Of a DNA stretch of 64,000 nt, positions 6,625 through 57,925 are shown piece after piece. Source of the DNA: Cladophialophora immunda (lineage: Eukaryota > Ascomycota > Eurotiomycetes > Chaetothyriales > Herpotrichiellaceae); the NCBI RefSeq assembly GCF_000835495.1, contig NW_015622541.1, positions 1,302,001 through 1,366,000 of the forward strand, in the 5' to 3' direction. Made by a program: the position numbers and the translations under genes. A model generated the notes under the pieces. The model was not told the DNA's origin. It saw only the letters and a list, made by a program, of their open reading frames with translations, and did not search any database. Position 1 is the first letter of the stretch. Every line of letters starts with the position of its first letter.

Positions 6625-9017
6625 CTACAACCTTGCCAGTCGACTTGCATGCTCGCCCATGCTGTTAATGACACTGGTCGGCCTTGGATCAATAGCCAAC
6701 CGGTTGATCGGATTCAATTCGCTGGCCCGGTAGAACAGATCCTCGTACACCTTTCCGTCATACCTGCCCAACGAGCTGTCCAGCGTCCAATCCGGCACCT
6801 TCCACGCATCGACCAAGCGCACCGCATGGGGTCGAAGATCCTGCAGAAGTCGAGGCACCGTCTCTCGCTGGGCACGCACCACTTGTGCCACGGTCAGTGC
6901 GGCAGAGGTGTAGAATTCGTGCGCGGCCTCGACGATCTTGGTCAGTGCGTACAGGCGGAACAGATTCCACAAAACCGGAAGAGTGTTGGTGTTATTAGTG
7001 CCAATAGTGGACGTCGTCTCGGGCGACTTTAGGCCCCGATACATGCTCGTTACTACGAGGAACTGGGAATGTGCCGTGCTCAGGCGCGGGTAATCGACTT
7101 GAAGAGCGCTGCTGGATTGGTGCTCGTGATCTCGGCGGCCAAGGATGTCGAATGTCAGATGTGCCGCTCGCCAGCCGAATGCCGCGACCATGTCATCATC
7201 ACGGGTCAAATCATATGTCGCTGAATCGTTCTTCTTCTGACTTCTGACGAGGAAAGTCTCGAGGTTGTCCGACGAGATGTTGGACGCTATCGAGGCATGT
7301 TCTCCTGTCTGGAGAGATTTCGCAGTTTTCAGAAGCTAACAGTCGGATGGAGAGATTAGCAATGCGCTCTCCTTTTCCGCGCTCAGGGTGGTATGCGCGA
7401 CAGACTCACATAGTTCGCGGTTTGCTGCATCAAGACGTAATTGTCGCCTTCGTACGTTTGTGAAGGGATCCAGTTCACGTGAATGCTGCCTATGCCGGCG
7501 AAGCTGGAGTATCCGTGACCTCCGCACGCGCGCCGGCATGCTTCGAGGCCCTCGACGGCTGCCGATGTTGCAAGTGCTTTCAGCCCGCACGATGTGGCGT
7601 GAGATTCTGCGAAGAGCCTCGAGGTCCGTGCGGTGATGGTGCTGGCATTCTTGGGGTCGACAAGCGCGGTCTTCAGCTCGTTGTAGAGTCGTGTCATAGC
7701 CTGGCCGGCGAAAACCAGCGCGAAGGACTCGGCTATTCGGGGAATCAGGCGGAACTGGACCATTGGGTGGTCGAGGACTTGCAAGTCGGAAGGGAGTGCG
7801 CTCGAGTTGGACGGACCGGGACTGGAACCCTGGCATCGAACAGCACAGTATCGAACGGCTATCGTCAATCCTCGAGCGAGGTTTCGCGCGGACTCGGAAA
7901 CGAGTGCTGCGCGTAACCTTGTGATTGTGCTGTAGAACACGGCGGGTGAGTGGGCTGGGATATAGGTGCCTGTCTTGGGATCGACTCGTGAGAATCTGGG
8001 AGTAAGACTTAGCTCTATCTTGTGCCATGCCCAAATATGTGTTATTCTGTGGAGATCATACCTTGCGAGCATGTTAATATGTGGGACTTTGACATGATTC
8101 AATAGTAGGAACCCATTGTCCACGGTACTTTTGGTTTTCTCGTCAGTCGATGCGTATGCCAAAGACGTCGCAAAGCGAGTCGCCTACTTATAACCCAATT
8201 TTGGACCAATGTCGCCCACATACACCCCTTCGAGAGGTTTGTGGGTCCCGAGATCCCTGATCTGGCAGACGAACGGGTGCGGACCATAGCCTTCCCCGTC
8301 GATGATCAGCTGTGCCATAACGATGGCGTGGTTCGCGCAGACGCCCAGCGAGCCGGCCCACCATTTCGCCGCTGTCAGCGTCGGGGAATGCAGCGTGAAG
8401 GTCTGGTCGGCGGGGTTCCACGTCGCCGTCGTTTCCAGCCCGCGCACGTTGGAGCCGTGGGCCAGTTCGGTCTGGGCGTAGCAGCCGACAAACTCTCCTC
8501 GCTCAGCCCTGCTGACGAACAACGCCTGCTGCTCTGGCGTGCCTTGTTCGCGCAGAGTCGGCTACGTGCGAGGTAAGCGATGAGCAAGGAACCATCGCGC
8601 CATTTCACATGCTGGAGAGAGAGATTAACCCACCACAAACGCTTTCCAATGGATCGTGTAGGCCGTCGGCTCGCCGATCATCTCAAGAGCCCAGTACAGC
8701 TCGTTCTCGTCCCAGTTGTGAATCTGCAAGAGTTGATTGAGGCGTCGTGCCCGCGCCACTGACGTCTTGAGCCGTTCGTTGCGGCCGTCGAAGTAGTCCC
8801 CGCTCTTGTCGAAGGAGGGGTCTTTCGATAGGATGCTGAGCACGCGCTGTTGCACTGCAACGTCTTCTCGGGTGTACAGGAGCCGTGCCAGTCCGTCGAC
8901 GTCGACCGTCGATTTCTGTCGTTCGAAGCTGAGGAAGTCCGGGTCGTTGGACTTGCACGACGATACGAGGGCCGAGACCCAGGAGGGTGCCTCGCTTGTT
9001 GCTCTTTCTGGCGACAT
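6625..9017 (-). CDS. Peroxisomal acyl-CoA oxidase (POX/ACOX family)
   Basis: First step of peroxisomal beta-oxidation: acyl-CoA + O2 gives trans-2-enoyl-CoA + H2O2, with FAD. Five exons were placed by hand: 9017-8634, 8561-8188, 8127-8062, 7995-7410 and 7335-6625, all with GT..AG introns and phases that agree, giving 706 residues, normal for the family. Diagnostic blocks are GCYAQTELAHGSN (about residues 154-166), MDNG-type TVDNGFLL, a CRRACGGHGYSSF block, and TYEGDNYVLMQQ, whose Glu is the catalytic base in rat ACOX1. The protein ends in ARL, a consensus PTS1. It is the first of three consecutive minus-strand genes (oxidase, thiolase, ligase). A CCGAGG core like the FarA/FarB fatty-acid response element lies at 9323-9328 in its promoter, although one hexamer is weak evidence. 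Confidence 0.92.
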
Positions 9018-9610
9018 GGTTCAGAAATTCGCTGGGAGGCAAGCAGATCGATTCACAGGAGCTTCGTCCCATATGTCAACGGGCAACAAGGAAGCTGTGT
9101 ACCATTTCCACAATGCAGCTTATCCGTCTAGCCTAATGCATGTAACGACCACGAACTCTCGGTATGCATAGTAGTGAAACTGTCGAGGTGACGGAGCCAT
9201 GACCCGTGGATTCGTGTCTCATTTCGGCTCCGTCGGTACCGCGCCAGTGGTGCATTTGAAATGAAGCCGGCCATATTTCTGCAATAGTAGTGAGATGGCC
9301 CGACGTGGGAGAAATGAGGTGCCCGAGGTGTTCATTGGTCTCCCCACACACACTTTTGTATTATTGCGTCGATTATGGGAGTTACAAAGTGAGTATGAAG
9401 GAGGGGCGACCGCCTTGGGGCAAAAAGTTATAGTGCTCGCTATCAGCCTAACTTGGCCTAGAGCGGCTCCACGCATAGCCACGACTACGTCTAAAACCAT
9501 CGTAGATGGATGGATGATATTTGGCCCTATTCTGCGGCGTATTGACTATCAAGCACATACTTCAACTTAATTAAGTGGTAGCACTTTTCTCCCGGTAGTA
9601 TCACACTTCC
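9018..9610. promoter_or_regulatory. Acyl-CoA oxidase promoter region
   Basis: 593 bp upstream of the oxidase start, also holding the 3' flank of the thiolase gene. It contains the palindrome CGGTACCG (9234-9241) and a CCGAGG hexamer (9323-9328). No coding sequence is seen. Confidence 0.55.
9234..9241. promoter_or_regulatory. CGG-N2-CCG palindrome, candidate Zn2Cys6 site
   Basis: CGGTACCG lies about 220 bp upstream of the oxidase ATG. Inverted CGG triplets are typical targets of Zn2Cys6 dimers. The same CGG-N2-CCG form occurs upstream of the thiolase and between the ligase and the dienoyl-CoA reductase. Binding is inferred. Confidence 0.35.
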
Positions 9611-10993
9611 TCAGATAGAGGCCCCACTGAATCCCTTTCTCTTCTCTGCAGCCCAGTCACTTCGTTTGGACGATCGAACCGACTCCGCTTGTTCCATCGT
9701 AAAGCCTCGAGCCTCAACCGCGGGATTATATCTTAGCCCGTTCACCCGGCCAATCTCTGCGTCTGAAAGCTTAGCATTCACTTGTCCGTCTGCACGTCTT
9801 AAGATCGTGACAACGCAGGCGCCTCCCAACCCAGCGTTCTGTTGTAATGCCAGCTTTCCAGCAGGGACCGAGACCAATCTATTATTTGCCCAGCCTCGCA
9901 GTTGCCAGACAAGTTCAGCACATTGGGCTAGCCCCGTAGCGCCGAGCGGATGGCCTTTGGAGATTAGTCCACCCGAAGGATTTACGACTGCATAGGCAGT
10001 TCCGTAGGTGAGGGAGCCATTGCGAACATATTCGTGGGCTTTCCCCTTCGGGCTCAGGCCGATAGCGTCGATGACGAGCATTTCGTTTGTCGAAAAGCAA
10101 TCATGAAGCTCGACCACTTTGACATCTTTGATATCAACACCCGCCTGGCCGAGCGCCTGCGAGGCGGTATGTTGCCCCAGCTCATAGCCCACGAGACTCA
10201 TGGCGGAGTGTTGGTACAGCTCCGGACTATCCGTGGCCAGGCACTGGCCCAGAATCTGGACGGCTTGAGATTTGAGGTGCGGTCGGGCGTCGAGAAATGC
10301 TTGAGACACCACGACGGCAGCGGCGGAGCCATCGCTGGTCGGACAGCATTGCAGTTTTGTCAGAACCCCGTAGATCGCTGGCGACTTCAGAACCTGGTCT
10401 TTCGTGTAGTTGGTCTGAAACTGTGCGTATGGGTTCCGTTGAGAATGTTCGTGGTTGATCCTCGCAATTTCAGCAAAGTCTTCGGGAGCAGCGCCGAATT
10501 TCTTGATATACTCTTCCGCGGCATTTCCAAACATCTTTGCTGCGAACGGTGCCTTGGGAGTCGAGTTGCCTAAATGGTCAGACATGACTTTGGCCCTGTC
10601 GAGGGGATCTGTTCTGTCGCTGAAGTTGGAGCCTAGACTCCCAGTTGCCATCTTCTCGAACCCCACGGCCAGCACACAGTCTGCAGCGCCGTACCGCACA
10701 AAGTCTCGCGCCATGACCATTGCTGTCGAGCCCGACGCGCAGTTGTTGTTGACATTGTAAATAGGGATCTGCGTCATGCCGAACTGATAGAGCACCCGCT
10801 GTCCACAGGTACTGTCTCCATAGCAGTAGGACGCCACTCCCATCTGGACATCGTCGTATGTAATGTGTGCGTCCAGCAAGGCCTTCACTCCTGCCTCAAA
10901 ACCCATGTCGGCATAATCATTTTTCGGTTGAGGTTTGACGAACTTCGTCATCCCAACTCCAAGTATGTAGACTGGATTGCCAGAAGCCATCAT
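9611..10993 (-). CDS. SCP-x type 3-ketoacyl-CoA thiolase
   Basis: Thiolytic cleavage of 3-ketoacyl-CoA to acetyl- or propionyl-CoA. The product is 460 residues from the ATG at 10991-10993, just before the conserved VYILGVGMTKF opening; an in-frame ATG 45 codons further up (11125) would add a non-homologous leader. The nucleophilic Cys85 sits in NNNCASGS, with ELHDCFSTNE and SKGHPLGATG further on, the standard SCP-x/thiolase-like acid-base blocks. No SCP2 lipid-transfer domain follows, so it is the thiolase half only. Single exon. SCP-x thiolases of animals accept 2-methyl-branched 3-ketoacyl-CoA, which is why I suspect branched substrates here. Unlike its neighbours it has no PTS1 (it ends GASI) and no PTS2 matching the consensus. 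Confidence 0.9.
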   Translation of the reverse strand: MMASGNPVYILGVGMTKFVKPQPKNDYADMGFEAGVKALLDAHITYDDVQMGVASYCYGDSTCGQRVLYQFGMTQIPIYNVNNNCASGSTAMVMARDFVRYGAADCVLAVGFEKMATGSLGSNFSDRTDPLDRAKVMSDHLGNSTPKAPFAAKMFGNAAEEYIKKFGAAPEDFAEIARINHEHSQRNPYAQFQTNYTKDQVLKSPAIYGVLTKLQCCPTSDGSAAAVVVSQAFLDARPHLKSQAVQILGQCLATDSPELYQHSAMSLVGYELGQHTASQALGQAGVDIKDVKVVELHDCFSTNEMLVIDAIGLSPKGKAHEYVRNGSLTYGTAYAVVNPSGGLISKGHPLGATGLAQCAELVWQLRGWANNRLVSVPAGKLALQQNAGLGGACVVTILRRADGQVNAKLSDAEIGRVNGLRYNPAVEARGFTMEQAESVRSSKRSDWAAEKRKGFSGASI

Positions 10994-11647
10994 GGGATTT
11001 GTTGCTGCTAATTCGCTGCTACGTTGTGCCCTTTGTCTTGATGCTGGAGAATGTGCGACCATAAAATCGCACAGAGGTAGATCAGATAAGGCAATGGCCA
11101 AGCGCAACTCGATATACTTGCTCAAGTTTTGTTTGCCATCGTCGCTACTGCATCATGCTCCATATCACAAACTGGTATATCGTCGGAGCAGACCTGAAGC
11201 CCGGGTCCGACTAGCCTTGAGAGGCTTGGAGAGGAGGTTAGACTTGTGCCTTCAGAAGTCGGAACCGACTTGGAGATCACTACTCCATGGGGCCCATCCG
11301 TACCGTATCCTGTTCGTCGGGTGACCCTCATCGCTTCGATTTCGCGGGCGCAGGCTGTGCAGAAAATTCTACGATGCCTCCAATATATTCATACTGGCTA
11401 TTGGGATCGTTTCGTTCGGCAAGGCGAAGGCCTGAGATACCAGCACCATTTTGCGAAGAGAATTACGACGCATGTATTCATGAGGAGAGCATTGCTTATG
11501 CGGGAAAGAATGCACATTGTCTGATATTTCCAACATTGCACCATCATCGCGGCGAAGCGGCGAGTAAAGGCAGCCTTTGACGCCAATGCCGTCTGATTCG
11601 AGTCCCTGTCAGACCATTGCATGTCCTGTACTATCTCTTCCTGACCG
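10994..11647. promoter_or_regulatory. Thiolase promoter region and 3' flank of the ligase gene
   Basis: 654 bp between the thiolase start and the ligase stop. It holds a perfect 7-bp inverted repeat around CGGAACCG (11256-11271). Apart from that no gene or repeat is evident. Confidence 0.5.
11256..11271. promoter_or_regulatory. Inverted repeat AAGTCGG-AA-CCGACTT, candidate operator
   Basis: Perfect 7-bp arms with a 2-nt centre, containing CGG-N2-CCG, about 265 bp upstream of the thiolase ATG. It is the best-formed of the CGG-N2-CCG sites in the cluster promoters. Function as an operator for the cluster regulator at 15.2-17.6 kb is inferred. Confidence 0.4.
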
Positions 11648-13585
11648 TTACAGTCGTGGCTGTAGTCTCAATGGTGTAGCCTGCTCTCTGTTGGCCCGAT
11701 CTCGAAGCTCTCTCCGAAGTATCTTCCCAGACTTTGCAACATTAGTTGTCGGCACTCGGTCAGATAGTTGTTCTGATGGACAGACGTACCTGATTCTTGG
11801 GGATTGAAGGCAAGAAGATAACACCACCAGTAAGTCGCTTGAATTTGGACACTTTTGATGCGACAAAGTCGACCACCTCCTGTTCTGTGATGGCGCCGTC
11901 TTTTCGAGGCACCACATATGCACGTGGATCTTCATCCTCTGAGGCACTGTGAACATATCAGTTTGCTGATCTCCTTGGCTTTGAACCCTCTGGCGTACGT
12001 CTTGATACCGATCACGGCCGCATCTAGGATCTGCGGATGCTCAAGCAAAAGTGCTTCAAGTTCAGCGGGAGCCACCTGGGCTCCTCGGACTTTGATCAAT
12101 TCCTGTGTTCAGTCATCAAATTGATGCCATTGAAGGACATACAGGGCATTGTACAGTACCTTTCGCCTGTCAACGATATACCACTTGCCATTTTCATCTC
12201 TGTATGCAATATCACCAGTCTTCAACCATTCGTCGCTGGTTTTTGTCTCCGCCGTCTCTTTGGGTTTACGCCAATAGCCTTTCATGACGTTTGGGCCGCG
12301 GATCCAGAGTTCGCCTGGAGCGTTCGCTCGGAGCTCTTCTGTGCCATCCTCCATGATCAGCTTGGCCGTTGCCCCCGGTACAAGCTCTCCCACCGAGATT
12401 GATGATGGGCCGTCGCTTTGGCTCTCGTTCCAGCATGTGCCAATACAAGGAAACCTAGTTTGCGTCAGTATATTTCCTGCAGACTTTGAAGATCCGTCTA
12501 GTCAGGTAGGTCTCTCACTCTGACATGCCCCACGCCTGGCGAACTCGCAGTCTTCCCGACCAGAGTTCCTCGAATTGCTTCGTTACTTCCATTCCAATGG
12601 GCGCCGCCCCAGCCACTACTTTCTTGACGCTGCTGAGGTTGTATTTGCCGTTGCGAGCTTCCGGGGCTTTTGCAATGGCAAGCAAGATGGTGGGGACCAA
12701 TAGAAGCTCAGTGATCTTGAAGTGATCAATACATGAAAGCATATCGTGGAGGTTGTATCGCTGCATCGTGTAGGTTTGCAAGCGTGCTTTTACCGCGACA
12801 AAGACGAAGTAGACCAACCCGAGCCCATGGTACATGGGGAGCACACACAATGCTCTCCTTTCTTGTACACTCGGATCAGACAACTGAGTCATCATCAGCT
12901 GCGTAGCAGTTGTGACTAGATTGTGGTGGGTCACTTCGACACCCTTGGGAAGACCCGTCGTGCCAGACGAATAGATCAAGATGGCTGTGCGGCTCGCCAT
13001 CTCTGCTGATGTGTATTCCTCCCATTTGAAAGCAGCCCCAACTTCAGAAGTCGTTATCAGAGCTTCCCAGTGCGGGACGGTGTCGTTCGCAGATTGCTCT
13101 TGCTGTCTTGATGCTGTGTCGAAGTGGGCAGATAATTCCTCGAAGAGATAAATGCGCGTGTTGTCGACCCCGGCAAACTTTGCAGCGTCTTTCGTCGTTG
13201 CCAGGCAATTTTCGGCTGCAAAGACGAATCTAGGCTCGCTGTCCCTCAACTGGTACGCCAATTCTCTTGCCGTTCCAGCTGGGTTGGCACTGTTGTAGAT
13301 ACCACCAGCCATCAAAGTCCCCAGCACCACAACGGGTGTCCAGAAGTTGTTCCCCGAAACCAGCATCAGACGATCTCCTTTCTGTACACCAGCTGCTGTC
13401 AAGCCGGCAGCAAACCGTTTCGACCATTCGCGCAACGTATTGAGAGAGAAGTAATGCGTCTCGGGTCGTCTCCAGTCGAGCAAGATCTTCTCAGTATCTG
13501 ACAGTTTCTCTGTTGGCGACCCAAAGAGAAATGAAGGGATAGACACATGAGGTGGTGATAGTGGCCACCGGGACTCATACGGCAT
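11648..13585 (-). CDS. Acyl-CoA ligase, 4-coumarate-CoA-ligase-like AMP-binding enzyme
   Basis: ATP-dependent activation of a carboxylic acid to its CoA thioester through an acyl-adenylate. Five exons: 13585-12519, 12454-12160, 12102-11999, 11946-11790 and 11731-11648, giving 568 residues. The AMP-binding P-loop [11 protein letters not shown] is at residues 205-215, followed by WGMSE, a [15 protein letters not shown] block, the [11 protein letters not shown] hinge region, [10 protein letters not shown] and the C-terminal SGKILRREL lysine motif. The start at MPYESRWP gives the usual short leader; the frame continues 67 codons upstream without homology. The donor of the third intron (GTACGC at 11998) was chosen because it keeps frame and a family-like sequence. 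The C-terminus PRL is a non-canonical PTS1-like tripeptide, so peroxisomal location is likely but less sure than for the neighbours. The substrate cannot be deduced. Confidence 0.88.
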
Positions 13586-13696
13586 GTTGACCACACAGCT
13601 GAATTCTGCAATCGACGGAGTGTGAGCGTCTTGCAGATTCAGACGTTGTCGATATGGGGAGTCTGAGAGAAAAATAAATGCACTCGATACTGTCTG

Positions 13697-13712
13697 TCCG
13701 GCCTTTGCCGGA
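13697..13712. promoter_or_regulatory. Inverted repeat TCCGGC-N4-GCCGGA
   Basis: Perfect 6-bp arms with a 4-nt spacer in the divergent promoter, about 110 bp from the ligase ATG. It is GC-rich and could bind a Zn2Cys6 dimer; spacing differs from the CGG-N2-CCG sites. Confidence 0.3.
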
Positions 13713-13903
13713 TACCGCCGAGTATAATCCCCAAGGCAGATTGCGAGGTGGGAAGAGGCGATGAGGCTAGTGCTCAAATATAGCAACCTTCGTTCTGTAA
13801 ATAGGGCGTCGTGGTGTTCAAAGTCAATAGCTTCATCATAGCCAGGTGGCGGGTCCGGGTGGTCCTTTGTATTCGTCGTCCATTAGCCTAAAATATCGGG
13901 AAT

Positions 13904-13923
13904 CGGGAACCGCGTCGGATCCG
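13904..13923. promoter_or_regulatory. Paired CGG/CCG motifs: CGGGAACCG and CGGATCCG
   Basis: Two inverted CGG pairs, spaced 3 and 2 nt internally, sit within 20 bp, about 105 bp upstream of the reductase ATG. The second shares the CGG-N2-CCG form with sites upstream of the oxidase and thiolase. Confidence 0.35.
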
Positions 13924-14027
13924 TTGGCAACAAGAAATAGTCAAGTCATGGGTATTGGAAAAGACAAAAGGCTCGACGTCTAAAGAGAACCGGTGGCCCT
14001 CGAATCACCTGCGGATTTACGGCAAAC

Positions 14028-15154
14028 ATGGTCAACATAGCAACTCCCGAAAGCTATATCAGCAGCAGCTGGGCCCAAGGACTATTCAGTGCGTATTCAC
14101 ATGGACCACCGCATCCATCTAGCACTGACTGCGTACAGAAAACAAGGTCGTCTTCTGCACAGGCGGATCTGGGGATATTTGCAGCTCTCAGGTAAGGGCA
14201 TTGGTCTATCTTGGAGCAAATGCCTGCATCGTCGGCCGAAACAAAGAAAAGGCAGAAAGAGTTGCGGCAAGCATTGCTAGCGCCAGAACCGGTGCTAAGG
14301 TACTCGGTATCGGTAACGTCGATGTGCGCAAGGTGGAAAGCCTAGAGGCTGCGGTCTCAACATGTGTATCAACCCTTGGAGGTATTGACTTTGTCATGTG
14401 AGATTCCTGTCACTTTCCCACCTAAAAGCAGCTCTGCTTGTACCTGAATCTTACGCTAGATAGTGCTGGAGCGGCGGGCAACTTTCTGGTGCCCTTGGTC
14501 AATTTGTCGACCAACGCCTTCAAATCTGTGATTGATATTGACCTGATGGGCTCTTGGAATGCTGCCAAGGTCACCATGCCGTATCTGCTGAAATCTGCGG
14601 CCAAATACCCAGGAGAAGGTAAGTAATCGTTGAGCGACTCGTCGCAATTTGACTAACCTAGTTGCGTAGGGGGTCGCATCATCTTCATCAGCGCGACACT
14701 TCAATATACAGGAGCCCCTCTGAACACCCAGGGTGTTGTAGCGAAAGCAGGAGTGGATGCACTGTCCGGCCAGTTGGCGATTGAGTATGGACCTCGAGGA
14801 ATTACGTCCAACGTCATTGCTCCCGGAATCATTGAGGGAACTGAGGGCGAGAGAAGACTCTTCAAAGGCGCCAAAGACGAACTGATCCAAAAAGTCCCGA
14901 CTGGCAGACTTGGCACGGTGAAAGATGTAAACAACGCGACAGTCTTCCTGTTTGCCGATACCGGTGACTATGTCAACGGTACTATCCAAGTTGGTAAGTC
15001 AAGTCCCTGTCCACTTACATCGCTGTAAGAAATACCCAACTGACAAGGTTCCTCAATAGTGGATGGCGCTGCTTGGAGGATCGGAGTGCAGGTTGGAGCT
15101 GGATATGACTACCCTGCTTCTGTATTGGTTGATCAAAAGAGTTCCAAGCTCTGA
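14028..15154 (+). CDS. SPS19: Peroxisomal 2,4-dienoyl-CoA reductase (SPS19-type SDR)
   Basis: NADPH-dependent reduction of 2,4-dienoyl-CoA to 3-enoyl-CoA, needed to degrade unsaturated chains with double bonds at even positions. Five exons: 14028-14088, 14139-14397, 14464-14618, 14670-14993 and 15060-15154, giving 297 residues. The family's special glycine motif FCTGGSGDIC is at residues 26-35, then VRALVYLGANACIVGRN, AGAAGNF, SVIDIDLMGSWN, and the VVAKAGVDAL block in place of the usual YxxxK. It ends in SKL, the canonical PTS1, confirming both frame and location. The GTAAGG at 14192 looks like a donor but is coding: the protein alignment reads straight through. Divergent from the ligase and convergent with the regulator, only 37 bp from the regulator's stop. 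Confidence 0.93.
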
Positions 15155-15191
15155 TAAGGCGGTATGAGTGAAGGCTGACTTGGTACCACGT

Positions 15192-17592
15192 CTACGTGGA
15201 GTTCTCGTCCCAGCAGTCCAGTATGATATCTCCATATCGTCGCAGAAGATCACGAAGAGCTGGACGCGCGACGCATTCGCCGGAGATGGTTCGATGAAGC
15301 GTCGAAAGACAAGCTAGTAGGGTTCTTATCGATCCCCTCTGTCCTGACGTCGGTGTTGCTGGAATTGTAGAGTGCAAAGAGTGGGTCGCTGACGGATCCG
15401 TGGGCTCACCTTCAGAGATGGCGTGTTCGATGGCCTTGGACAAAGCCAGGACCGTTACGCAGGTGTTGGCGTGGTGCGAAATCAAGGGCAGCCTATCTTC
15501 TGAGGCTTCCGAGAGCCGAAAGTCTCCAAGTGCGGAGGCTTCGTTTATTCGTTCCGAGGCGTCTACGATTTGACGAACAGCTTGTTGCACGTACTTGGCG
15601 GCGGTTTGCAAGAATTGTGTGCCGCCAGGAGGACCAAGTACTTTGCTCGCAGTTCTCAAGACTTCGACAACTCGAAGCACGCCTAGGTTCCAGAAAAGAA
15701 CCAGAAAGCCTGGGACGTAAGCAACCACGTTAGGACCAGTATGCCTGTACAGGGAAGGACGACAAACCAACAAACTGCTTTGACTGAGTAGACAGCTGCA
15801 GAAAAGCAGAGAGGCACTGCTCCATCCAATTACCATGAGTGGAATAGAATGCATCAACAGCCTTGGTCAATGACTCGATTGTGAGTTCCGCCGCAGGTAA
15901 ATTTTGCTGCGTTGAACCTTGCTGATGAAGCAAGGAATTCAGCCGACTAGTTTGACGAAATACGCTAAAAATACACCGGCTTCCCTGTTGTGAGATTTCG
16001 GCAACGGTGTCCTCCAGGGGTTGTGGTAACAGAGTCGTACACGATGTCGGTAGAGGCTCTAGAGAAGTGTGTAAGCCTTGAAGTGACGAAGGTGACCGCT
16101 GAGACCTACCAGCGATGGTCATGGGCAAGTCATCCAAGATGCAAGATCGTTCGGAAATGAGAGATTCCATAGTATCACGGACATAACCAAACCAGTGAAA
16201 GATTCTTTGTGATGACTCCAGGAGGGTGCGATAGAGTGATTTCGATTCCAGATGTGAGCAGAACTGGCTCAACTGGGCCGTAAGGCCCTTGAGCTGATAT
16301 AAAGCATGGTCCAGGAAGTAGACAGCACTTCCTGAAAACTCGTCCTTCGAGAATGCCTCGTCCGGTTTGGCGGTCATGTGGAATAGGAAGACTGAATATA
16401 TATGCATAAATGATCTGTGATTATTTGATTTGACGAGATAAGAGTGTGCATTGAACCAAGCGGTGGTGAAGACCTGACTCATCGAAGCGGCTGATTTTGA
16501 ATCCTTCGCGATTTCTACCAACTGCATGACCGGCATATCTTGTTGGTCAACTTCCTGGTCCGCGGATGAAGCGAATTGCAATGCAAAGGCTTGTAATACG
16601 GCCGTAAAGGTAGCTTCGTCCAATTGTCGCTTCTTCTGATCAAGCTTGTTCCCATACAAAGTTGCAAAGTTGTCCAGAAATCGAGCGACACCAATCAACG
16701 TGATCCGTCTAAATGATTCAATAGGTTTCTGGGCAGATTGGCGCACAATTTGTCCCCATCCGGCCTGTATTTGTTGATCGGTCAAAGATACCATGTCATC
16801 CGGTAATGAGTTGTTGTCCTCAGGATTGAAATCTGTGATTTGCTTTGCTGGATTCTCCGGTTCTATGATATAACCATGCGCGCCAGCGAATTGATTGCAG
16901 ACATAGGACAGGTATCTGCTTGCTAGGCCCATGAGCATCGTGTCATAAACCTGACAAAGATTCTTAGTTATTCCTTCGGTCAATGCAGTAGAATTGAGGA
17001 GTTTGATTGGGCTTCCATGCCAAAAAGTACCCAGAGTGTCACTTTCAAATGGGCGCGACTTTTCGGGTGGTTGTGACTTTGACTCGGTCGGGCCAAGGAC
17101 TGATGTTATGGGATCGTTGTCGACATGGCAAATCGCGCCTATCATGCCACTGTCGAGGGTTTCTTCCGGCAGGTCCATCAAGTCTTGGGTGTCGCTGTTT
17201 AAGAAATCGTCAAAATCAAGGAAATCGGGTGGTCCTAAGCCAGCCCAGATCATGTTGTCCAAATGCATCTCCTGATCTGCAGAAGGCTGAAGTGTCGTCG
17301 TCCACGTCGCCGCAGAGCTTGCTGTTTGGGCAAAAAGAGCCGACTTTGAGATAGTTGGAGACGAGAATTGCTCACTGGATGGTGCACAGTTGGGTGAAGA
17401 CACCATCTTCCTTCTCTTCAAGGCCTGACGAGCCGCAACAAAGTTAAAGGTACATAGATGGCCCAGGTGCGCACAATTCAGGCACTGAGCGCCGCTCCCA
17501 GGCTGGACACCAGGATTGAATGCACATCGTTTCTTGGAGTGACGGCAAGGGTCACAAGAAGCATTTTGACGGCGTCCGCTTGACGCCATCAT
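15192..17592 (-). CDS. Zn2Cys6 transcription factor, candidate cluster regulator
   Basis: DNA-binding regulator, 780 residues in two exons (17592-15768 and 15709-15192). The binuclear zinc cluster is at the very N-terminus: C13, C16, C23, C37, C40, C47 (CDPCRHSKKRC...CLNCAHLGHLC), followed by a basic RRK stretch. The long C-terminal part is helical and resembles the regulatory region of AflR-like fungal factors without a sharp motif. The first exon alone would end in a stop 12 codons past the splice site; using the GTTTGT donor at 15767 restores a long helical extension, and the intron has a plausible branch sequence. It lies inside the beta-oxidation block and is divergent from the multifunctional enzyme, so I infer it controls the block. 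Its target and inducer are unknown. Confidence 0.85.
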
Positions 17593-18262
17593 CGTGAAGG
17601 GTACTGTGCAGCTTCAAAGCAGTCAAATTTGCCAGGACAAAAGAGTTCAGCCACCTGTCTGAATGGATGCATGAATCATAAAGTCCGACTTAGTCAAATC
17701 CACGCTCCGACTGGAAGTTTTCGTTATAAAAATCAAGTTCCCATTAGCGAGAGGAAGGACCCGGGGTCTCCAACTGGAGAACGAGACGACCATACATGCT
17801 GCGTGCGGAGGAGTGAGGGGCGGAGGAAGGAGAGGGTGAAGGCGCATGGGCCGAAGAGCATACTCAGTACAGAGCCGATGCCAAGAGTCGGCTCCGACAA
17901 TAGAAGCTAAGCTCAGAGTGGAATGGTGTTACGCTGGCGAGGCTTTAATCCGATGAGCCCTTGTCGCACGCATACCTAGCCAGTGCCGCGAGGCCTATCA
18001 CGCACAGAACGACTTGTGCCTGTACACCGGGATGCGTCGCTGCGGCTCTCATTACTCCGATCATGGTGTTGCAAGCGATGCAAAAAATAGGAGCTAATAT
18101 CCTACTGATGTTCGGCTCGGGTAATGCGGCGAAATGACGAGCCATCCTGGGCTCAGCACATATGGTCACAACAGCGACGCCGATGATGAGGGTACTTAAA
18201 TGTTTCTTATCACTCTACCCATCGGCTCGCAAGTCAGAGACACCAGTCATCTTGTGGCGCAT
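17593..18262. promoter_or_regulatory. Divergent promoter, Zn2Cys6 regulator / multifunctional beta-oxidation enzyme
   Basis: 670 bp between head-to-head genes. It contains a perfect inverted repeat at 17872-17894 and a CGGAGGA direct repeat near 17805-17830. No coding region is convincing. The arrangement would allow autoregulation together with control of the enzyme gene. Confidence 0.6.
17872..17894. promoter_or_regulatory. Inverted repeat GAGCCGA-N9-TCGGCTC, candidate operator
   Basis: Perfect 7-bp arms with a 9-nt spacer. The CCG...CGG orientation and spacer length fit sites bound by Zn2Cys6 homodimers. It lies about 280 bp from the regulator ATG and 370 bp from the enzyme ATG. Confidence 0.4.
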
Positions 18263-21240
18263 ATGGCTTCCATTAATTACGATGGACAGGTGTTCGTCAT
18301 CACCGACGCGACTACTCTATTCGCCCACGACTGCGCCAGCTTGTTGGCAGCTCGCGGCGCAAAATTGGTCCTCAACTATCCTCCGAGCTCAAGGCTAACA
18401 CGCAGTACAGTAGGCGACAGCATCCCTTCGGTTCACGAGACATATCAAGATCTCCAAGATGCGGATAAGATCATTGCGGGCGCCTCCGAGAAATATGGCA
18501 CCGTCCACGTTCTGATCAACAATGCTTCGCCCAGAAGTCCCAGTCCGTCATATGACCTCCAGAGCTCAGCAGTATGGGATGCCATGCGGAAGAATGTGAT
18601 TGATGGAGCGTACAGGGTATTCTTTCTTGTTTTAACCAAGGTGCATCTGTTGATGTACTAACGAGCTTAGTGTGCTAAAGCAGTCTGGCCTCATTTCCGG
18701 AAAAACGGCTATGGTCGAATCCTGTTCATAGACTCTGGCTTTACAGACTCTGGAGTTGCTGAAATTGGTACATTTGCTCATCTTTCACGGTTGAAAAGCA
18801 ACCTTCTGACTTCAGCAGCTGGGCGATTTGCTCTGTTCGGATTTGCCGAGACACTGGCCCGGGAAGGAGCCAAGTACAACATTCGTGTCAATATTATAGC
18901 TCCGCCGTGTATATCACATCTCTTAGTCCTCTAGTATGTCTGCATCGCTAACCTGTGTCCTACTCTAGCGGCTTCCTATGTCATGGGGGAACAGACGCCA
19001 GCCACGCCCGAGCCCGCGGCCCTCACATCGCTTACAGCAGCACTCGCCCATGGATCACACAACGACGCGGTGGGTTCACTGTACAGCGTTGGGGACGATT
19101 GTGTCCGGAAATTTCGATGGGAGAGGTCAAAGGGTGTCTCCCTGAATCCGGATCTCAACTTCACAGCCGGGGCGCTAGCCACGCAGTGGGAGGAGATATT
19201 CGACTTTTCTCACAAAGAGTATTCGACGTCGGCCACGGATTTCGGAAAATTACTGCCAGAAATGCAGAAACTGCCTTCCAACTCAGTCCACCCTTCTCCA
19301 GACTTCTCGGGAAAGGTCGTCCTCATAACGGGCGGTGCATCTGGGTAAGTCTGCTGATAGTCTGATACCCTCATTACTTTCGACTCGAGCCTGTGAACTG
19401 AGCTTCGTACTATTTAATACAGACTCGGTCGCGCCTACTCCCTGGCATTCGCAAGGCTCGGCGCTCGCGTGGTCGTGGTCGATCGAGCCGACCCTCAGAA
19501 AGTCGTGGATGAGATCCACGGCGCAGGCGGCCAAGCCGCTTCTGTCATTGTATCAGTCGAACATGCCAACTACATCGTCAGCCGGGCGCTGGCATTCTAC
19601 GGGAAAATAGACGTACTGGTTAACAACGCCGGATTTGTCCGCGATAAGTCGTTCGCCAACATGGACGACAATCTCTGGCGGACAGTAATGGACGTGCACC
19701 TCGAGGGCACGTACCACATGACCAAAGCCGTGTGGCCGCACTTTGTCCGCCAGCGCCACGGCTGCATCGTGAATACCACGAGCACTAGCGGCATCTACGG
19801 CAACTTTGGCCAGGCCAACTATTCTGCTGCGGTAAGTAATCCACCTGAATTTAGAAGCCAGGGAGGCCAAGCTCGGGCATGCCACTCACTGGTACGCAAA
19901 AAACAAGAAACTAGGCATCCTCGGCATTTCGGAAGCCACTGCTCGTGAAGGAGAGAAGCACAATATCCGCGTCAATACCATCGCACCCGTCGCCAGCACC
20001 GGCGGCCTGGCTGTAGCACTCTCCGGCACCAACGACAAGAACAAGCAACCGGTCTTCTTGCCCGAATACATCGCGCCACTCGTGCTCCTCTTGACATCAG
20101 ACACGATTATCGGCAGGCCCAATTACACTACCGGTGGTTTGTTTGAAGTCGGTTGCGGATGGCACGCAGCTATTCGCCTGCGTCCAGTCTCTGAGTTGGA
20201 GTTCTCGTCCACCAGGGAAATATCACCCGAAGTACTCGCTGGATGTTGGCACTCCAAAAGTTCTCCCACCGCCCTCGTTAAAGCCAAGTCTAACAAAGAT
20301 GTGCTGGAGACCATTGCTGGACTGAAGCGCGTGGATGTTCAACATACCGAGTACACATATACAGACAACGACGTGATGCTGTACAGTATGTATTTACCTT
20401 TTCCCTATTTACGCGATGGTTGTCGCTAACTCCATTTCTCCCGTTATAGACCTGTCCATCGGCGCGAAAAGGTCAGAACTCCCATTCATATGGGAGGAAT
20501 CGAAATCCTTCATGGCACTACCGACCTTCGGAGTGATCCCGTTCTTCAGCATGGACACTATCTACTACCACGGCCAGATCCTGCCGGGCTTCAAAGCTAC
20601 CCAGTCGCTTCTCGGCGAGCTCTACCTCGAGATCCTCCAAGATACCATACCCGTCTCAGGCCATACGTCGACCACCCGACGACTAATCGAGGTCCTAGAC
20701 AAAGGCAACGCAGCGGTTGCTGTTACGGGTTACATGTCAAGCGATGCCAGGACTTGCACGCCGCTTTTCTACAACGAAGTGTCGTTCTTTATGCGTGGCG
20801 CAGGCGGCTTCGGCGGGCCTCGAGAACGCTCGCACCAGACGCCATCGGCGCGGACATACACAATGCCGTCACGCCGGCCCGATGCGGTCGACGAGTTCCG
20901 CACCTCGGAAGAACAGGCTGCCTTGTACAGGCTGACTGGCGACCGAATGGCCATGCACGTCGATCCTGAGTTCAGCAAGCAGGGAGGCTTCCCGATCCCG
21001 ATCCTGCATGGGATGTGCTTCATGGGCGTTGCCGGCAAGCAGCTCTTCCAACGCTATGGAATGTATCGGAGCATCAAGGTCAAATTCGCCGGTCCAGTCG
21101 TGCCGGGTCAAACACTGCGCACGGAATCGTGGAAGTCTGGTGACCTGGTTGTGTTCCAGACTAGAGTGGTCGAGACGGACAAGCTTTGCATTGCAGGAGG
21201 AGGAATTCAGTTGCGTAAATCGTCTGCGGCCAAATTGTAG
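18263..21240 (+). CDS. FOX2: Peroxisomal multifunctional enzyme type 2 (FOX2-like) with degenerate first SDR domain
   Basis: Hydratase/(3R)-hydroxyacyl-CoA dehydrogenase of peroxisomal beta-oxidation. Seven exons: 18263-18616, 18671-18767, 18816-18908, 18969-19344, 19423-19831, 19908-20385 and 20450-21240, giving 865 residues; the 48-nt second intron keeps frame if retained (881 residues). Domain order is that of yeast FOX2: SDR-A (1-230), SDR-B (about 293-560) and MaoC hydratase (about 600-865). SDR-B is intact, with TGGASGLG and NYSAAKLG. SDR-A is not: its TGxxxGxG motif reads TDATTLFA and the YxxxK pair is gone. The hydratase has D767 and H772, but the Asn expected between them is Met769. 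The C-terminus AKL is a PTS1. It is divergent from the regulator. Confidence 0.9.
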
Positions 21241-32799: not shown

Positions 32800-35520
32800 G
32801 TTGCTAATTTATCACCTCTGCCTAGCCTACAGTACCTATAACTTAGCACCCGATTTAAGTTGACGTAATGGTCATAAAAGTTCCCTTTCTCTAAATTAGG
32901 TTAGTCTAGGTCAAGCCTCACTATCATCCTCTCCCCCCCCCCGCTGTTCCGCATTGCCACGAGGACATCGAGTTAAAGTGCTTCATTGGCGGGTTGACGA
33001 AGAGCCGGCAACCTAGCTTTTAATTATTTTTTTGACAAGGGCGACTACCTTCACTCCATAACACAGCTACTAGGTAGCTAAGATTAGATCAAATTCTACT
33101 GTCTATCGCTACCGTCACGGATTATCGACTGAGCCCGGCGGTTCCGATTCATCTATGTCGACCGGCTTAGTGAATAATGTATACCCTACTAGCTAGAATA
33201 GATATCCCGACTGAAGGACCCGTTTATCGTCTTAAGGACGGGAAGGGTAGCCATAAAGGAGAGCCTTACAAGGATAATCCACTGGTTATGCGTTCTAGTG
33301 GGCGCGTAGGCGTCTCATCCTAACGACGGGGGATACGACGGGATTCTAGCTAGTGGCCTAACATGATGGATTTATCCATGCGGAATAGGGTCTGCGAGGT
33401 AACCTTTAGACTAGGAGGTGGATTCATGGTGCATACTAAGGTAGCGAAGATCTACTATGAATGGTACTGAGTGTTATTAGGGGCTTAACTAGGCGAACCG
33501 GTGACGGAGGGTTTGCCGTAAAGTATACGACCTCTTAAGGCGGAAGTGGAGGTATAAGTACTCGTCACCCGTTACTAGGACCCTCGGGATTCGAGTGACA
33601 TAGAGTTGGGCCCTCCCGACATAAAAAGGGCTAGAAGCGATACTTCGTACACTCCCGCCGGCGGTAATGAAGGCAATAAAGATAATGACGATGTTGACTA
33701 TAAGAGTGAGAGTAGTAACCTTCTATCTCTCTGAGAGATCTTTAGATAGCGTAAAGCATAATTTAGAACGAGTTATATGACGTCCCTAACCTAAAGGCCC
33801 TTATATGCACACTAACTAGTCTTCTAGTGAAGGCCAAGGTTACCTAGATAGGACAATTCTGGAAAAACTCCATAGCTACACTATCGTCTCCAATCCCGAT
33901 GTCAGGAATGGCTCGCCAGTAAACTATCTGATAAGTATATTGCCTATCTATAGGCGCAGACGACAGCGATTCCGAAGCTGGAGAGCTTCAGAAGGTAGTC
34001 TGCGACTCGTACGCTTATATACACCTGACCCCTGAGGTCTTGGCAACCCTTGTTCATAACACCCGAAATCTAGTCATGAGTATTATTTAGGACCTTCTGT
34101 GTCGGCCTGATTTGCCTCCGAGTTTTTCCATCTTCAGTGGGTGCCGTGAACGTGCATTTGTCATAGCCTACCGAGATATCGCAGACTTATGACTGAGACC
34201 CGTAGTTGAGTAGGGCGCTACTGTGGGTGTTGTAGTAGGGTGTGTTGATGACTCAAACGTACGTCAGGAGGAGCGTCAGGAGATGATTTTCATTACTGAA
34301 GTTGCATTCCCACCCCGTGCTGGCACTGTGTATGCTTCATGCCTTAATTGTTAGGCATTTCTGGCGGCAGGTTCATACTTAGATGCTATGCGATGTTCTT
34401 ATCGTAGTAAATGGTAAGCTAATGAGTTCGTTATCGGGTAGCTTTCGCGAAATCAGTTCCTAGTATATTACTTGAACTTGGACTTCCTCGCTGTGGAATA
34501 TCGCCGTTTAGACGTAAGACCTAACTAGGCCTAGCGTCTTATCACGTAATATAAGTGGCGTTACTAGTGGTGTGATTTATTACTAATAGCGCTTAGAAAT
34601 CCATCTACTAGGAGTTTCTAGTGCTATCTAGTAGTGTTTCCTTTATCTATATAAGAGCGTTCTCTCCTCTCAGATAGTTAACTTAACTAAGCTTCTAAAC
34701 AGTCACGTACATTACCTAATGGTACGATCCTATGAGCCAATCTACCTATTATACTCTATGTCCTCCGAATAACTAGAATAATACTAGAGCGTTTATTAAC
34801 CTAAATAGTATCACTAGGTACTTAAAGTAGCCGTACTACGTACGAAACGTAGTCTTCTAGTAGTCCTCTTTAGTAATTTAGATTTAATAATATATATCTC
34901 TAAGATTAAGTTTAGTGAAAATCTTTACTCTACTTAAGCGATCTAGAACCTTAAGGATTAAAGGTAGAGAGTAACGGTTCTTCTAGGTGATCTTATTTAA
35001 CGTACGATAGTTAACGTAAAGTTATAGGCTACCGTTAGGTTTTAGTACGAATAGAATTATTACTCCTATTAGGGAGTTACTTAGTTAAATCTATCCTCTC
35101 GCTAGGGCTATCTTAATATACTTACGTAGGACTCTTAGCTTATTTATACTTATAGAGTAGAGAGATCTATATAGGATTATCTTACCCTCCTTAATAGGGA
35201 TAGAGTATTATATAAAGGTCTTATCTCTAAATATTAACTAGGAACTTTATTATATAAGCTTTAATCTTCTTATAACGCCTTCTAAGGGCTATAAGACTCT
35301 ATACGCTGAGGAAGTCGATCTAAAGTTATCTAAAGGTCTACCTTAATTATTTATATAATTAGGTATTTTAGTTAGACTCTAGTCTAGAATTAAATCCTTA
35401 TATTCCTTTTCACTAAGAACTCCTACTCTACTAGTATTATAATAACGGATATCTTAGATTCCTAATACTACTATTTAATAACGCTATATATAAAGCTAGT
35501 ATCTTAAACGAGATAGAGTC
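32800..35520 (-). mobile_element. RIP-degraded Ty3/Gypsy retrotransposon relic
   Basis: An AT-rich region dense in TA and stop codons, without long frames. Read on the minus strand, 35170 down to about 34740 carries reverse-transcriptase blocks of the Gypsy family in the right order: a LRKYI-type spacer end, FVLKPNGSL (near 35040), KNRYSLPL (near 34970), IFTKLNLRD (near 34905) and a YGYFKYLV block (near 34830), all split by stops. The rest (32.8-34.6 kb) is too damaged to assign domain by domain; it may hold RNase H, integrase and LTR remains. The element is fixed and inactive. The damage fits RIP (CpA to TpA). Confidence 0.7.
34740..35170 (-). pseudogene. Gypsy reverse-transcriptase domain, stop-riddled
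   Basis: Best-preserved part of the Gypsy relic. Several in-frame stops lie between recognisable motifs, so no functional product is possible. The 5' (N-terminal) side runs towards 35.5 kb, where the LINE begins abruptly. Confidence 0.65.
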
Positions 35521-35530
35521 TAATATAAAG

Positions 35531-35860
35531 TTACCCTGAGGTGTTCCTTGGGTTTTGTAGGGTCTTAAGCGCACTTTGATTATCGGTGAAGATGATGAAG
35601 TTTTTGTCGTTGTATTCAGGGCCGGTACGAGTTATCAAGATCTGTAAAGCCAGTAGGATGCCCTTCAATTCAGCCGCGTATATAGTGCTTTGGGTATCTG
35701 TGCCCATATACTCCGTTCCCTTCTGGAGCACCCGACTTGATATTGAACTTAGAGTTGATAGGATCACCGCTGCGGCGCCGACATGTCCATTAATGCCACT
35801 ACCGTCCGTGTAGATGTAGATGGTGTGGGAGCCCTCGCTGAGACTATTATATTGCGACAT
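35531..35860 (-). pseudogene. LINE RNase H domain, C-terminally truncated
   Basis: IYTDGSGINGHVGAAAVI with the first catalytic Asp, AAELKGILLALQI with the Glu, and IIFTDNQSALKTL with the second Asp. The last Asp and the WVPxHxGIxGNE-type segment are missing because the frame ends at NPRNTSG. Confidence 0.8.
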
Positions 35861-36269
35861 CGCCTCCTCTGGTATGCCCGCTATAATAACCGGCGGGGCC
35901 TTCCACCAGGGCGTGATAACATAGGGTTAGCGGTGTTCTAGGTCGACGTGATGGATCTAATACCGTTTCTGTAGGACTCTAGCGTGACGCAATATTGGGC
36001 TCTCCTTAGAATATCTTCGCTCTCCGCCAATATCATCGAGGACTAGACGGAAGGGACAGGATAACAGTCTCAAGGTGGTATGCAGACTCAACTTTTCCAT
36101 TTGTTAGTCTAGGGGTAATAGATGTGCTTCGACTTCCACTGCGTTCGCGGCCGTTGTTCGGAATGCTCCTGTGATGATCTGGGCCGCTCGTCTTTGGACT
36201 GAGGTGAGTAGGCGTGCGGTTTGTGTTTGTCCTTTGGGAGGGCGGCCTAACCGTCGGTATTCCCGGAGC

Positions 36270-37219
36270 TTATACTAGGCCGAGCATCCGTATAGAAGCT
36301 GAGGCAGGAGCATCGCCTGATACACCTGTCGGAGAGTCATCAAATCGGCTCCCTAGGTGGACGATGTAAGGGAGGAGAGAGCGGTCAGACGCTGGAATGC
36401 CTTCTGCCGAATTCGTTGCACATGGTCCCTCCATGTGAACTTGTTGTCGATCTGGAGGCCTAGGTACCTGCATGAAGTCACTGGCGTGATCGTGATTTCC
36501 GGAAGACGCAAAGGATGTTTTGTGTTAACATAAGCGTTTCTGGCGAAATGAATGACAGTGTATTTAGACGTTGCGAATACCGATCCATGTTTTCGGGCCC
36601 ATTTTTGTGCTTCTTGATGTGCTATTTTGAGTGCATGAGTATTGTGTTGCGGGGTGGCGCCGGTGGCTAGGAGGGATACGTCGTCGATATAGCCGATAGT
36701 GTCCAATTTCTCATTAGCACAGACTTCCAGAAGGTCGGCGTTATAGAAGAGGTATAAGATCGGTGATAGTGGGGATCCCTGTAGTATACCGGCAAAGACA
36801 TCTGTCGCCTGCCCCGTGAACTCTGGTAGAACAAGTGTCGTTATACGGTCGTTCAGGAAGGATGCGATCCAGTTTACCGTAGCGGGATCGATCCTTCTTT
36901 TGCGCAGGTTGTGTAATAGCCTAGGGTGAGACACATTGTCAAAGGCACCTGATACATCCAAAAGTAACAGGCTAGCGACCTGTTTTCGATCCTATGCTTA
37001 GTGAATTCGGGTGAGAAGGGAATGGAAAGCGTACTCGGTTGATGCCATCTTCCGTCCCCCGATATGATTGATAGGTAGGAGGCTGAATTTCTCTGCTAGG
37101 TACATTAATCGGGTGCCGATGACTACTTCTAGGGCTTTACCGACGGTATTTAGCAGTGCGATAGGCCGGTAAGCCTTTAGTTGAGAGTAGTCATCTTTTC
37201 CCGGCTTCCTTAGCACCAC
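36270..37219 (-). pseudogene. LINE reverse-transcriptase domain
   Basis: Two frames at 37219-36998 and 36961-36353, separated by a break, cover fingers and palm: LRKPGKDDYS, AYRPIALLN, LDVSGAFDNVSH, LQGSPLSPILYLF and the catalytic YIDD. Tail sequence continues to about 36270. Interrupted, so not functional as it stands. Confidence 0.85.
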
Positions 37220-43422: not shown

Positions 43423-45170
43423 ATGTCGTATCGCGGAAAACCCACCAAGGCATGCCAAAAATGCCGTTTACGCAGAGTCAAGGTGAGCGTCCCAATACAA
43501 CCAGCACAACACGAACTCCCACTCCCTGAGCCGCGCCTTCCAATGTTCCTTGGGGAGATCCAGCAATAATGGCAACCACCCTTATGTCATTTGTTGAATG
43601 AGGGCGTCACAGCCCTGCGTTCCTTTCTCAGCTGTTTACCTGCTCATGTCTTGCATCCAGTGCGATCTGGCGTCACCAGTATGCCAGCAATGCGAAAAGA
43701 TTGGCCATGAATGCCAATATCGCGACTTGTTCGACATATTCCACAAAGATGAGACGTCTCTTGCTAGAGATCATGCACGGGAGAAATGGCGAAAACGGTC
43801 GACGAAGAGTGCAAATCGCTCATCTAGCGGAGACGATGCTCAATCCAATTCCGACTCAACCAAACCTTCCCCCTCCAGTCCTCCTCTAGTGGATGCACTG
43901 CAGCTTCCTCTAGACGATCGCGCCAGGTCCCGCTTCTATTTCGACTTTGTCGACGTCCGCTTTCCTTACCTGGAAATACTAGTACCTCGACTTTTGGGGG
44001 CGACAGCGGCGGATTCCCTCTTGCGATGTACTCTCTCGGCCGTCTGCTATGCAAATTTTGCTGGCCGTTTCAATGACCGCCAGGCAGCACGAGCCGGAGC
44101 AACGCAATACGGCAAAGCCATGCGCCAATTAGCAGGAACCATAGGTGATCCAGCAAAGCTGAAGTCGTTTGACGTCTGTCTTTCCGTGTATCTTCTATCC
44201 ATGTATGAAGTTCTCGCCGGAGACAAGCTGGACGGTACATGGCAAGCTCATCTTAAGGGCTGCGGAGACGTTCTCCAGATTTATAATCCCAGTTCAATCA
44301 ACACCGCAGCCGAGAGAAGGTTTTACAGAAGCATGTACACTCAGCAGGTAAACCAAACCCCATTGTCCTCTCTGACGGGACCATTGACATTTGACCTAGC
44401 TTTTGAGGCACATGGGACAGTATAGTGCCCCGCCTGCGGACTTGAATCGCTCGCAGGACCTTTTACCGCCGATTGACAGTACAATACAAACCCTGTTAGA
44501 TCTAGTTCTCCGAATCAATATAGTATGCGTCAACCTACAGCCAAATCATCAACCCAAGGGAGTCGATATCACCGGAGCCGATCACTGCCTGGAAGACGCA
44601 GTGGAGCTTGGTTTTCAGCTCCAATCATGGTATCAGTCTCTCACGGAGGATTGGTGGTGCTCAGCCAAACCAATAGCGACGACCAACAGATACCAGTGGA
44701 TATCTGACCTACTCAGCTTCCCGGGCGCGCCAAAAATAATGCACCAATACTCGTCGCCGCACGCAAAATTCTGCAGCAACCTCTATCACGTGGGCCGAAT
44801 CCACCTCAACCTTAGTATGATCGACCATCTCATCTCAGTCTACCCACCACAGCAGCTGGATACCGCAATCATAAAAGATCTATCCTCCAAAATATTGTCC
44901 CACATCGACGTCATCATGAAAAACGTCCCGTCAACTCTCGGTATATCGCCCTCTGGAGGTTCTGAGGATCCGAGAACGGTGAATGACGTACAAGGCATGA
45001 AAGCATATCATGTTATGTGGCCGCTAGTCAAAACTTCGAGATGCTTCAAACGAAAATCGATCAAAGCCGCAGACAAAGACGGCCGGGGCCGCTGGATCAA
45101 GCATGTGTTGGAATTTTTGGGGCGGGAGTTGAGTATCAAGAAGGCGGCTGCGCACGCGACCTATTTTTGA
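43423..45170 (+). CDS. Zn2Cys6 transcription factor
   Basis: 505 residues in three exons: 43423-43482, 43661-44347 and 44400-45170. The zinc cluster spans the first intron: C11, C14 and C21, then C28, C31 and C38 (KACQKCRLRRVKC / PVCQQCEKIGHEC). The first intron is long for this region (178 nt), and the start at MSYRGKPTKA is the typical opening of this factor type. The rest is the helical fungal-specific region (YFDFVDVRFPYLEILVPRLL, then SVYLLSMYEVL and LLRHMGQYSAPP) found in factors related to sterol-uptake or metabolic regulators. Its targets are unknown; nothing in the island looks like a pathway it would control. Confidence 0.85.
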
Positions 45171-57373: not shown

Positions 57374-57925
57374 GGCGATTTGCGTCGTGGATGGTTGATG
57401 GGGGTGCAGCAAGTATAGCAGAGGCACTCCTGGGAGTTGGGAGTTGGGAGCTGGCAGCTGGACGAGACCAGAGGACATCCATTTATTCGTATATCAAGTC
57501 AGCTGCGATCCATTGCCGCCGAGGCCTGAATGCGGTGATGTGAGACGTGAGGAGGAAAAGGAGGTCTGTTTTGTTGCTATCCTGGCGATCGAGATTGAAT
57601 CCCCCGGAGTTTCCGGTGTCGTCCGTGCAGAGTCCAGATAGAATGGTTCGTGTGTCTGCAAACTCCCGAATACCTCTGGCTCAGCCGGACCAAGGTTTGG
57701 CTCTGGCGAAGCTACATCTTTGCTCTGGGAATCGAGTAGCCATCAAGCCCGCGGAGTTTCCAGCCCATGATTTGGCCACCAAAGCTGATCCTTTGTGGGC
57801 TTCGTTCCTCGTTGTACAAGGAAGCTTAACAATTTATCTCCATTTCAGACCCGGGTCGAACCTTGTCGACGTTCAGACAAGCGTCTCCTCCTACCTCTTA
57901 AAGATTTGGTTATTGAATTGTCGAC
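57374..57925. promoter_or_regulatory. Divergent promoter, exporter / Baeyer-Villiger-type monooxygenase
   Basis: 552 bp between head-to-head genes, suggesting joint control of oxidation and export. I see no repeat strong enough to name as an operator. Confidence 0.55.

Follow-up and report, generated by a model that had tools for sequence, protein, structure and literature searches.

A linked beta-oxidation gene cluster in Cladophialophora immunda encodes a multifunctional enzyme with a degenerate first dehydrogenase domain

The 64 kb window analysed here, the whole stretch of DNA from 1302001 to 1366000 of contig C1 in the 42.2 Mb genome of Cladophialophora immunda (Chaetothyriales), contains six contiguous genes at 6625-21240 (positions are those of the window) which encode, in order, an acyl-CoA oxidase (-), an SCP-x-type thiolase (-), an acyl-CoA ligase (-), a 2,4-dienoyl-CoA reductase (+), a Zn2Cys6 regulator (-) and a FOX2-type multifunctional enzyme, MFE-2 (+), an arrangement which creates two divergent promoters, ligase/reductase and regulator/MFE-2. 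We conclude that this cluster is a real, conserved and probably locally regulated module which includes a pseudo-enzyme domain. There is good reason to think that the locus forms a linked, locally regulated module for beta-oxidation (side-chain shortening), standing beside the general fatty acid pathway, probably peroxisomal, and serving a particular unsaturated acid. The first-pass annotation had placed the same six genes side by side, and both Pfam and the gene models, built with GT-AG introns and with the MFE-2 splices of the public model, agree with it; Pfam backs the ACOX, thiolase, AMP-binding, SDR, hydratase-2 and MaoC parts of the proteins, and no additional gene is evident in the gaps between the cluster genes, none of which exceeds 654 bp.

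The MFE-2 gene (CLAIMM_11286) runs on the forward strand from 18200 or 18263 to 21240, with its orthologs pointing to the start at 18263. The provisional model is 98% identical to CLAIMM_11286 over 100% of its length, and the public model (P0031), of 885 amino acids, gives an intact gene, thus ruling out a frameshift at about 18.9 kb. The protein comprises a degenerate first SDR domain (A, about 18263-19000), an intact second SDR domain (B, about 19290-20000) and a hydratase-2 domain with the motif GDRMAMH (about 20450-21240), and so departs from the two complete SDR domains expected of a fungal MFE-2. When the residues of 120 listed MFE-2 proteins were compared, seven of the cluster type and 113 others, the Ser/Tyr/Lys site of domain A was found to be lost in all six of the cluster-clade proteins which have a domain A and retained in 113/113 of the others, while the domain B triad was retained in 120/120. 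Set against fungal Fox2 (FoxA), the cluster domain A also lacks the first two NAD glycines and the NPLH of the hydratase has become MAMH; the catalytic Asp/His dyad of hydratase 2, as given in PMC2698920, is retained in all seven cluster-type proteins and the intervening NPL replaced. In the tree these proteins form one clade of seven (support 100/100).

Despite its lost active site, domain A is 68% identical among five cluster orthologs and, by comparison of the structural model of the MFE-2, retains its fold, which resembles that of C. tropicalis MFE-2. The closest solved chain to the enzyme is the (3R)-hydroxyacyl-CoA dehydrogenase (2et6) of that C. tropicalis protein, and the structural matches were exclusively to known MFE-2, SDR and MaoC-type folds. 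Judged by its residues, the enzyme of the cluster is a derived form of MFE-2 whose first dehydrogenase domain is predicted to be dead. The first-pass view of the cluster as built from paralogues of the general set, of which extra copies do exist, therefore understates this gene. Mammalian MFE-2 has only one dehydrogenase, whereas the fungal cluster enzyme retains a second such domain, apparently a dead one; the mammalian set for branched-chain peroxisomal oxidation (ACOX, MFE-2 and SCP-x) has the same classes of enzyme but is not a gene cluster.

Linkage of the cluster genes was found in eight other named assemblies (six by locus tags and two by shared contigs) and on five further contigs, and is shown for five of the six genes, all but the oxidase. 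The recurrence of this linkage from species to species means that the arrangement goes beyond chance, and the loss of gene order in every relative, which the first-pass annotation had named as a ground for rejection, is not what is seen. Linked pathway genes kept in relatives together with their own Zn2Cys6 regulator are what is expected of a catabolic cluster. The locus tags in relatives, in which only cluster genes were looked for, are near-consecutive and leave little space for extra genes within the core. Three proteins of the LTR10 assembly, labelled Elasticomyces elasticus (P0155, P0032 and P0174), are 73-83% identical to their C. immunda counterparts, and given the usual placement of that species the label may be wrong.

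The regulator, 780 amino acids in our gene model (exons 15768-17592 and 15192-15709, -), carries the zinc motif C-X2-C-X6-C-X13-C-X2-C-X6-C; the window protein itself has no Pfam match and its E. sideris ortholog exceeds the PF00172 threshold by 0.5 bit. When CGG/CCG triplets were searched for at 16 spacings and in three arrangements, 48 patterns in all, CGG-N2-CCG alone reached three or more of the four promoter regions of the cluster, and it occurs in every one of them: two sites each in the promoters of the oxidase (9225 and 9234, spanning 9225-9241) and the thiolase (11202 and 11260, spanning 11202-11267) and in the divergent ligase/reductase promoter (13850 and 13916, spanning 13850-13923), and one in the divergent regulator/MFE-2 promoter (17889-17896). 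These seven sites lie in 2,358 bp of cluster promoter, compared with 26 in the entire 64 kb, and up to 26.7 kb the window holds eight, all within 9,225-17,896, the remaining one being inside the regulator gene.

Dinucleotide shuffling (3000 sets) gave on average 0.5 CGG-N2-CCG sites, with all four regions occupied in three sets and at least seven sites in none. Any one of the 48 patterns occupied all four shuffled regions in 120 of the 3000 sets, and did so with at least seven sites in three. Length-matched random stretches of the window (20000) had the motif in all four on nine occasions and at least seven sites on 21. The sites at 11260 and 17889 are each a full extended palindrome, GTCGGNNCCGAC, which was picked after the sites had been seen; it is not enriched genome-wide (65 occurrences against 80 for the reversed control), and two of the 65 copies sit in the cluster promoters, 6.6 kb apart.

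For comparison, six control promoters were taken, that of the housekeeping Fox2 and those of five of the other oxidases, the gene starts being estimated by the position of the first match. Upstream of the housekeeping Fox2 there are two Far-type CCTCGG sites and CGG-N2-CCG is absent, the opposite of what the cluster MFE-2 promoter shows. Fatty acid genes of Aspergillus use CCTCGG, with one site at A. flavus FoxA, according to PMC5068947; this FarA/FarB-controlled set resembles the cluster in its kinds of enzyme and in having Zn2Cys6 factors, but CCTCGG is missing from three cluster promoter regions and present once in the fourth, that of the oxidase, which is about chance expectation. The promoters thus suggest that the cluster is not clearly a Far-regulated set, and a motif which all six genes have in common and the housekeeping Fox2 lacks speaks for local control. 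The idea of a dedicated pathway outside ordinary Far control is strengthened by this common motif, although the Far contrast itself is suggestive only. The confinement of the sites to the cluster within these 26.7 kb, the ACOX promoter included, argues that the oxidase belongs to the C. immunda regulon despite being unseen in relatives.

The remaining enzymes are consistent with a beta-oxidation pathway. The oxidase (PV07_00394; 6625-9017, -; 706 amino acids, five exons) is 100% identical to its public counterpart over the piece searched, and peroxisomal ACOX1 is its closest solved chain. The thiolase (9611-10993, -; 460 amino acids, one exon) has the HDCF motif and a type-1 SCP2-thiolase domain, is closest to SCP2-thiolase type 1 (6hrv, E 6.6e-130) and scores 528.7 bits against the NCBIfam lipid-transfer protein model NF006102, above the cut-off of 436. 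It can thus be called SCP-x-like, as first annotated, in its domain but not in its overall form, since the 460 amino acids hold thiolase domains only, with no fused SCP2 domain, and lack a peroxisomal targeting signal type 1 (PTS1). The ligase (CLAIMM_11283; 11648-13585, -; 568 amino acids, five exons), of the 4CL/fatty-acyl ligase superfamily, has 4CL2 as its closest solved chain, with luciferases and fatty acyl-CoA synthetase nearly as close, and its kinship does not reveal the substrate. The reductase (CLAIMM_11284; 14028-15154, +; 297 amino acids, five exons) is an SDR of probable SPS19/DECR2 type, since it ends in a PTS1 and its kinship to peroxisomal 2,4-dienoyl-CoA reductase (4fc6, E 1.3e-38) spans the whole domain; it scores under the cut-off of the bacterial NCBIfam model of that name. 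The C-termini read in the first pass, ARL for the oxidase, PRL for the ligase, SKL for the reductase and AKL, the PTS1 expected of a fungal MFE-2, for the MFE-2, are all correct.

Taken together, these enzymes could act in sequence, and we infer the peroxisomal site, the order of reactions and the binding of the motif by the cluster regulator. The ligase would form the CoA ester of the acid, in C. immunda the oxidase would insert the 2-double bond, and the dienoyl-CoA reductase would take out an awkward double bond; the derived MFE-2 would then hydrate through its hydratase-2 domain and oxidise through domain B, its sole intact dehydrogenase, and the SCP-x-type thiolase would free acetyl- or propionyl-CoA. 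Expression would be controlled by the cluster-encoded Zn2Cys6 protein, which may bind CGG-N2-CCG in all four promoter regions. The substrate assignment is the weakest step of this explanation. The presence of a dienoyl-CoA reductase implies that the substrate has double bonds, and domain B of yeast MFE-2 prefers short chains, so that an enzyme which relies on this domain, and whose hydratase is retuned, would seem to suit an acid that is short or bulky; our guess is an unsaturated acid outside housekeeping metabolism, with an aryl-alkenoic or terpenoid-like chain.

It had been proposed that the idea of a dedicated cluster would fail if these were the only copies in the genome, and further copies were found of the oxidase, thiolase, ligase, reductase and MFE-2. 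For the oxidase, a search with the ACOX family yielded eight matches in seven loci including that of the cluster, one of them partial with an in-frame stop, and there is an extra oxidase-like stretch at C5:4467k. The thiolase has eight further loci, 54-66% identical, and another, weak match; for the hydratase half of the MFE-2 there are five additional long matches; the ligase, compared over its first 356 residues, has closest paralogs of 56%, 47% and 40% identity; and paralogs of the reductase lie at C3:1158k, C1:4708k, C2:2970k and C6:2761k. The gene at C2:6127k is the housekeeping Fox2, grouping with the canonical protein of C. bantiana (support 100/99). At C6:3705377-3717327 a thiolase, a carboxylesterase-like frame (labelled by eye, and without a Pfam match in the piece scanned), a sugar transporter, a canonical MFE-2 and an AMP-binding ligase adjoin one another, with an incomplete oxidase match, broken by an in-frame stop, at 3733k; this locus was rejected as a sister cluster, its MFE-2 grouping with the housekeeping Fox2.

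A second cassette, at C2:2957-2972k, consists of an MFE-2 (-), a ligase (-), a different Zn2Cys6/Fungal_trans gene (+), a thiolase (-), an enoyl-CoA hydratase/isomerase (-) and a reductase (+), and the ACOX family search found no oxidase near it. Its MFE-2 retains the domain A glycines, has Val in place of the tyrosine and NAMH in the hydratase, and joins the cluster clade on a long branch (support 99/97). CGG-N2-CCG occurs four times in the 15.9 kb of this cassette, though not in every promoter, and the two thiolases are not sisters in a tree whose outside members were picked by likeness to that of the window. We tentatively propose, as a possibility worth entertaining but short of being favoured, that two or more classes of filamentous ascomycetes share an undescribed lineage of MFE-2, in which the first dehydrogenase is now a conserved pseudo-enzyme domain and the hydratase is retuned, and which travels with the ligase, SCP-x thiolase, reductase and CGG-N2-CCG regulator as a side-chain-oxidation cassette for one substrate; the second, diverged cassette of C. 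immunda likewise lacks the domain A tyrosine. Among the open-licence papers listed by the literature searches, no title or opening of an abstract describes such a cluster or a fungal MFE-2 whose domain A is dead.

Several observations weigh against a dedicated peroxisomal module. No ortholog of the oxidase in relatives was among the best 120 of 1670 matches (7996 candidates), so that conserved order is shown for five genes rather than all six; the oxidase may be a local addition in C. immunda, and the six-gene cluster possibly this species' version of a five-gene core. The closest regulator-like protein of Exophiala aquamarina (34% identity) is not adjacent to its MFE-2 by tag, by the tags of C. 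bantiana there is room for a single gene at a point where two would be expected, and the 30 matches of the regulator search include no regulator from either C. bantiana or C. chaetospira. As to location, the thiolase ends in ASI, a strict PTS1 being found in one of 31 related thiolases checked, and strict signals end four of the seven cluster-type MFE-2s (AKL, and SRL three times) but not the other three (FKL, SML and ARI). The motif was found post hoc and in one genome, it occurs in one of the six control promoters (the oxidase at C2:1679k), and only three of the six have CCTCGG, which makes the Far contrast weak. The top NCBIfam model of the ligase is a long-chain fatty acid ligase, with a score under the cut-off, and the ligase thus lends a special substrate no support. 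A relative of the AtuA-family gene to the right of the cluster (CLAIMM_11289; 25800-28011), beyond C. immunda's own, was also missing from the best 120 matches of the search that recovered the other genes. In a study on toluene (PMC5595782), beta-oxidation genes decreased as a group and the text does not name the cluster genes; toluene was therefore set aside as an inducer.

Other explanations of the locus were considered. One is that it is a biosynthetic cassette which shortens a fatty or polyketide chain on the way to a secondary metabolite, a role that peroxisomal CoA ligases and hydratases play in certain fungal pathways; a ligase, peroxisomal signals and an own regulator would look similar, and peroxisomal siderophore enzymes have been described (PMC3709128). 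We regard this as unlikely, because the longest stop-to-stop frame in the window is 669 amino acids, the subset of window frames scanned contained no polyketide, peptide or terpene synthase, and the near-consecutive tags leave the core little room for other genes, although a core synthase gene lying at a distance or split by introns would escape such a scan. Somewhat less likely still is that the module is a portion of a larger terpenoid acid pathway extending over the AtuA-like gene and its neighbours at 22-30 kb. The AtuA-family gene itself, and the listing of 'acyclic terpene utilization' as enriched in C. immunda in PMC5595782, speak for it; however, the lack of other AtuA relatives among those 120 best matches speaks against it, as does the absence of CGG-N2-CCG between 17,897 and 26,700. 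An extension of the cluster over the weak FAD-type frame (22.9-23.8 kb, under the cut-off), the AtuA-family gene and the sugar transporter to its right thus finds no backing in the relatives' matches or the motif positions. Least probable is that these are ordinary fatty acid genes adjacent by accident and made redundant by duplication, without a dedicated substrate: all of the steps are catalysed by known beta-oxidation enzymes, there is one Far-type site in the promoter of the oxidase and the ligase leans to the long-chain type, but the order is preserved across species, the MFE-2 clade has lost an active site, and the cluster genes have a common motif which the housekeeping Fox2 promoter lacks.

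Elsewhere in the window, a TCP-1 chaperonin gene flanks the cluster on the left (4.3-6.3 kb), and a hydrolase taken by eye at 22.2-22.5 kb had no Pfam match and was dropped. There are AT-rich stretches at 33500-37000, with a reverse-transcriptase frame (36353-36991, -, PF00078), and at about 50.5-55 kb, while 43598-45167 and 55242-59882 hold another Zn2Cys6/Fungal_trans_2 gene, a TRI12-type efflux frame and an FMO-like flavin monooxygenase.

Fungal beta-oxidation is generally viewed as a single general machine. In Grosmannia clavigera, beta-oxidation genes, many of them in one genomic region, go up on monoterpenes (PMC4368105), a likeness at the level of the published description. If a dedicated module is the correct reading of the C. 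immunda locus, then fungi, including the black yeasts of hydrocarbon-polluted places, would assemble dedicated breakdown lines for particular acids, and the signature of the MFE-2, MAMH together with the absence of YxxxK from domain A, could be used to seek the cluster in other genomes.

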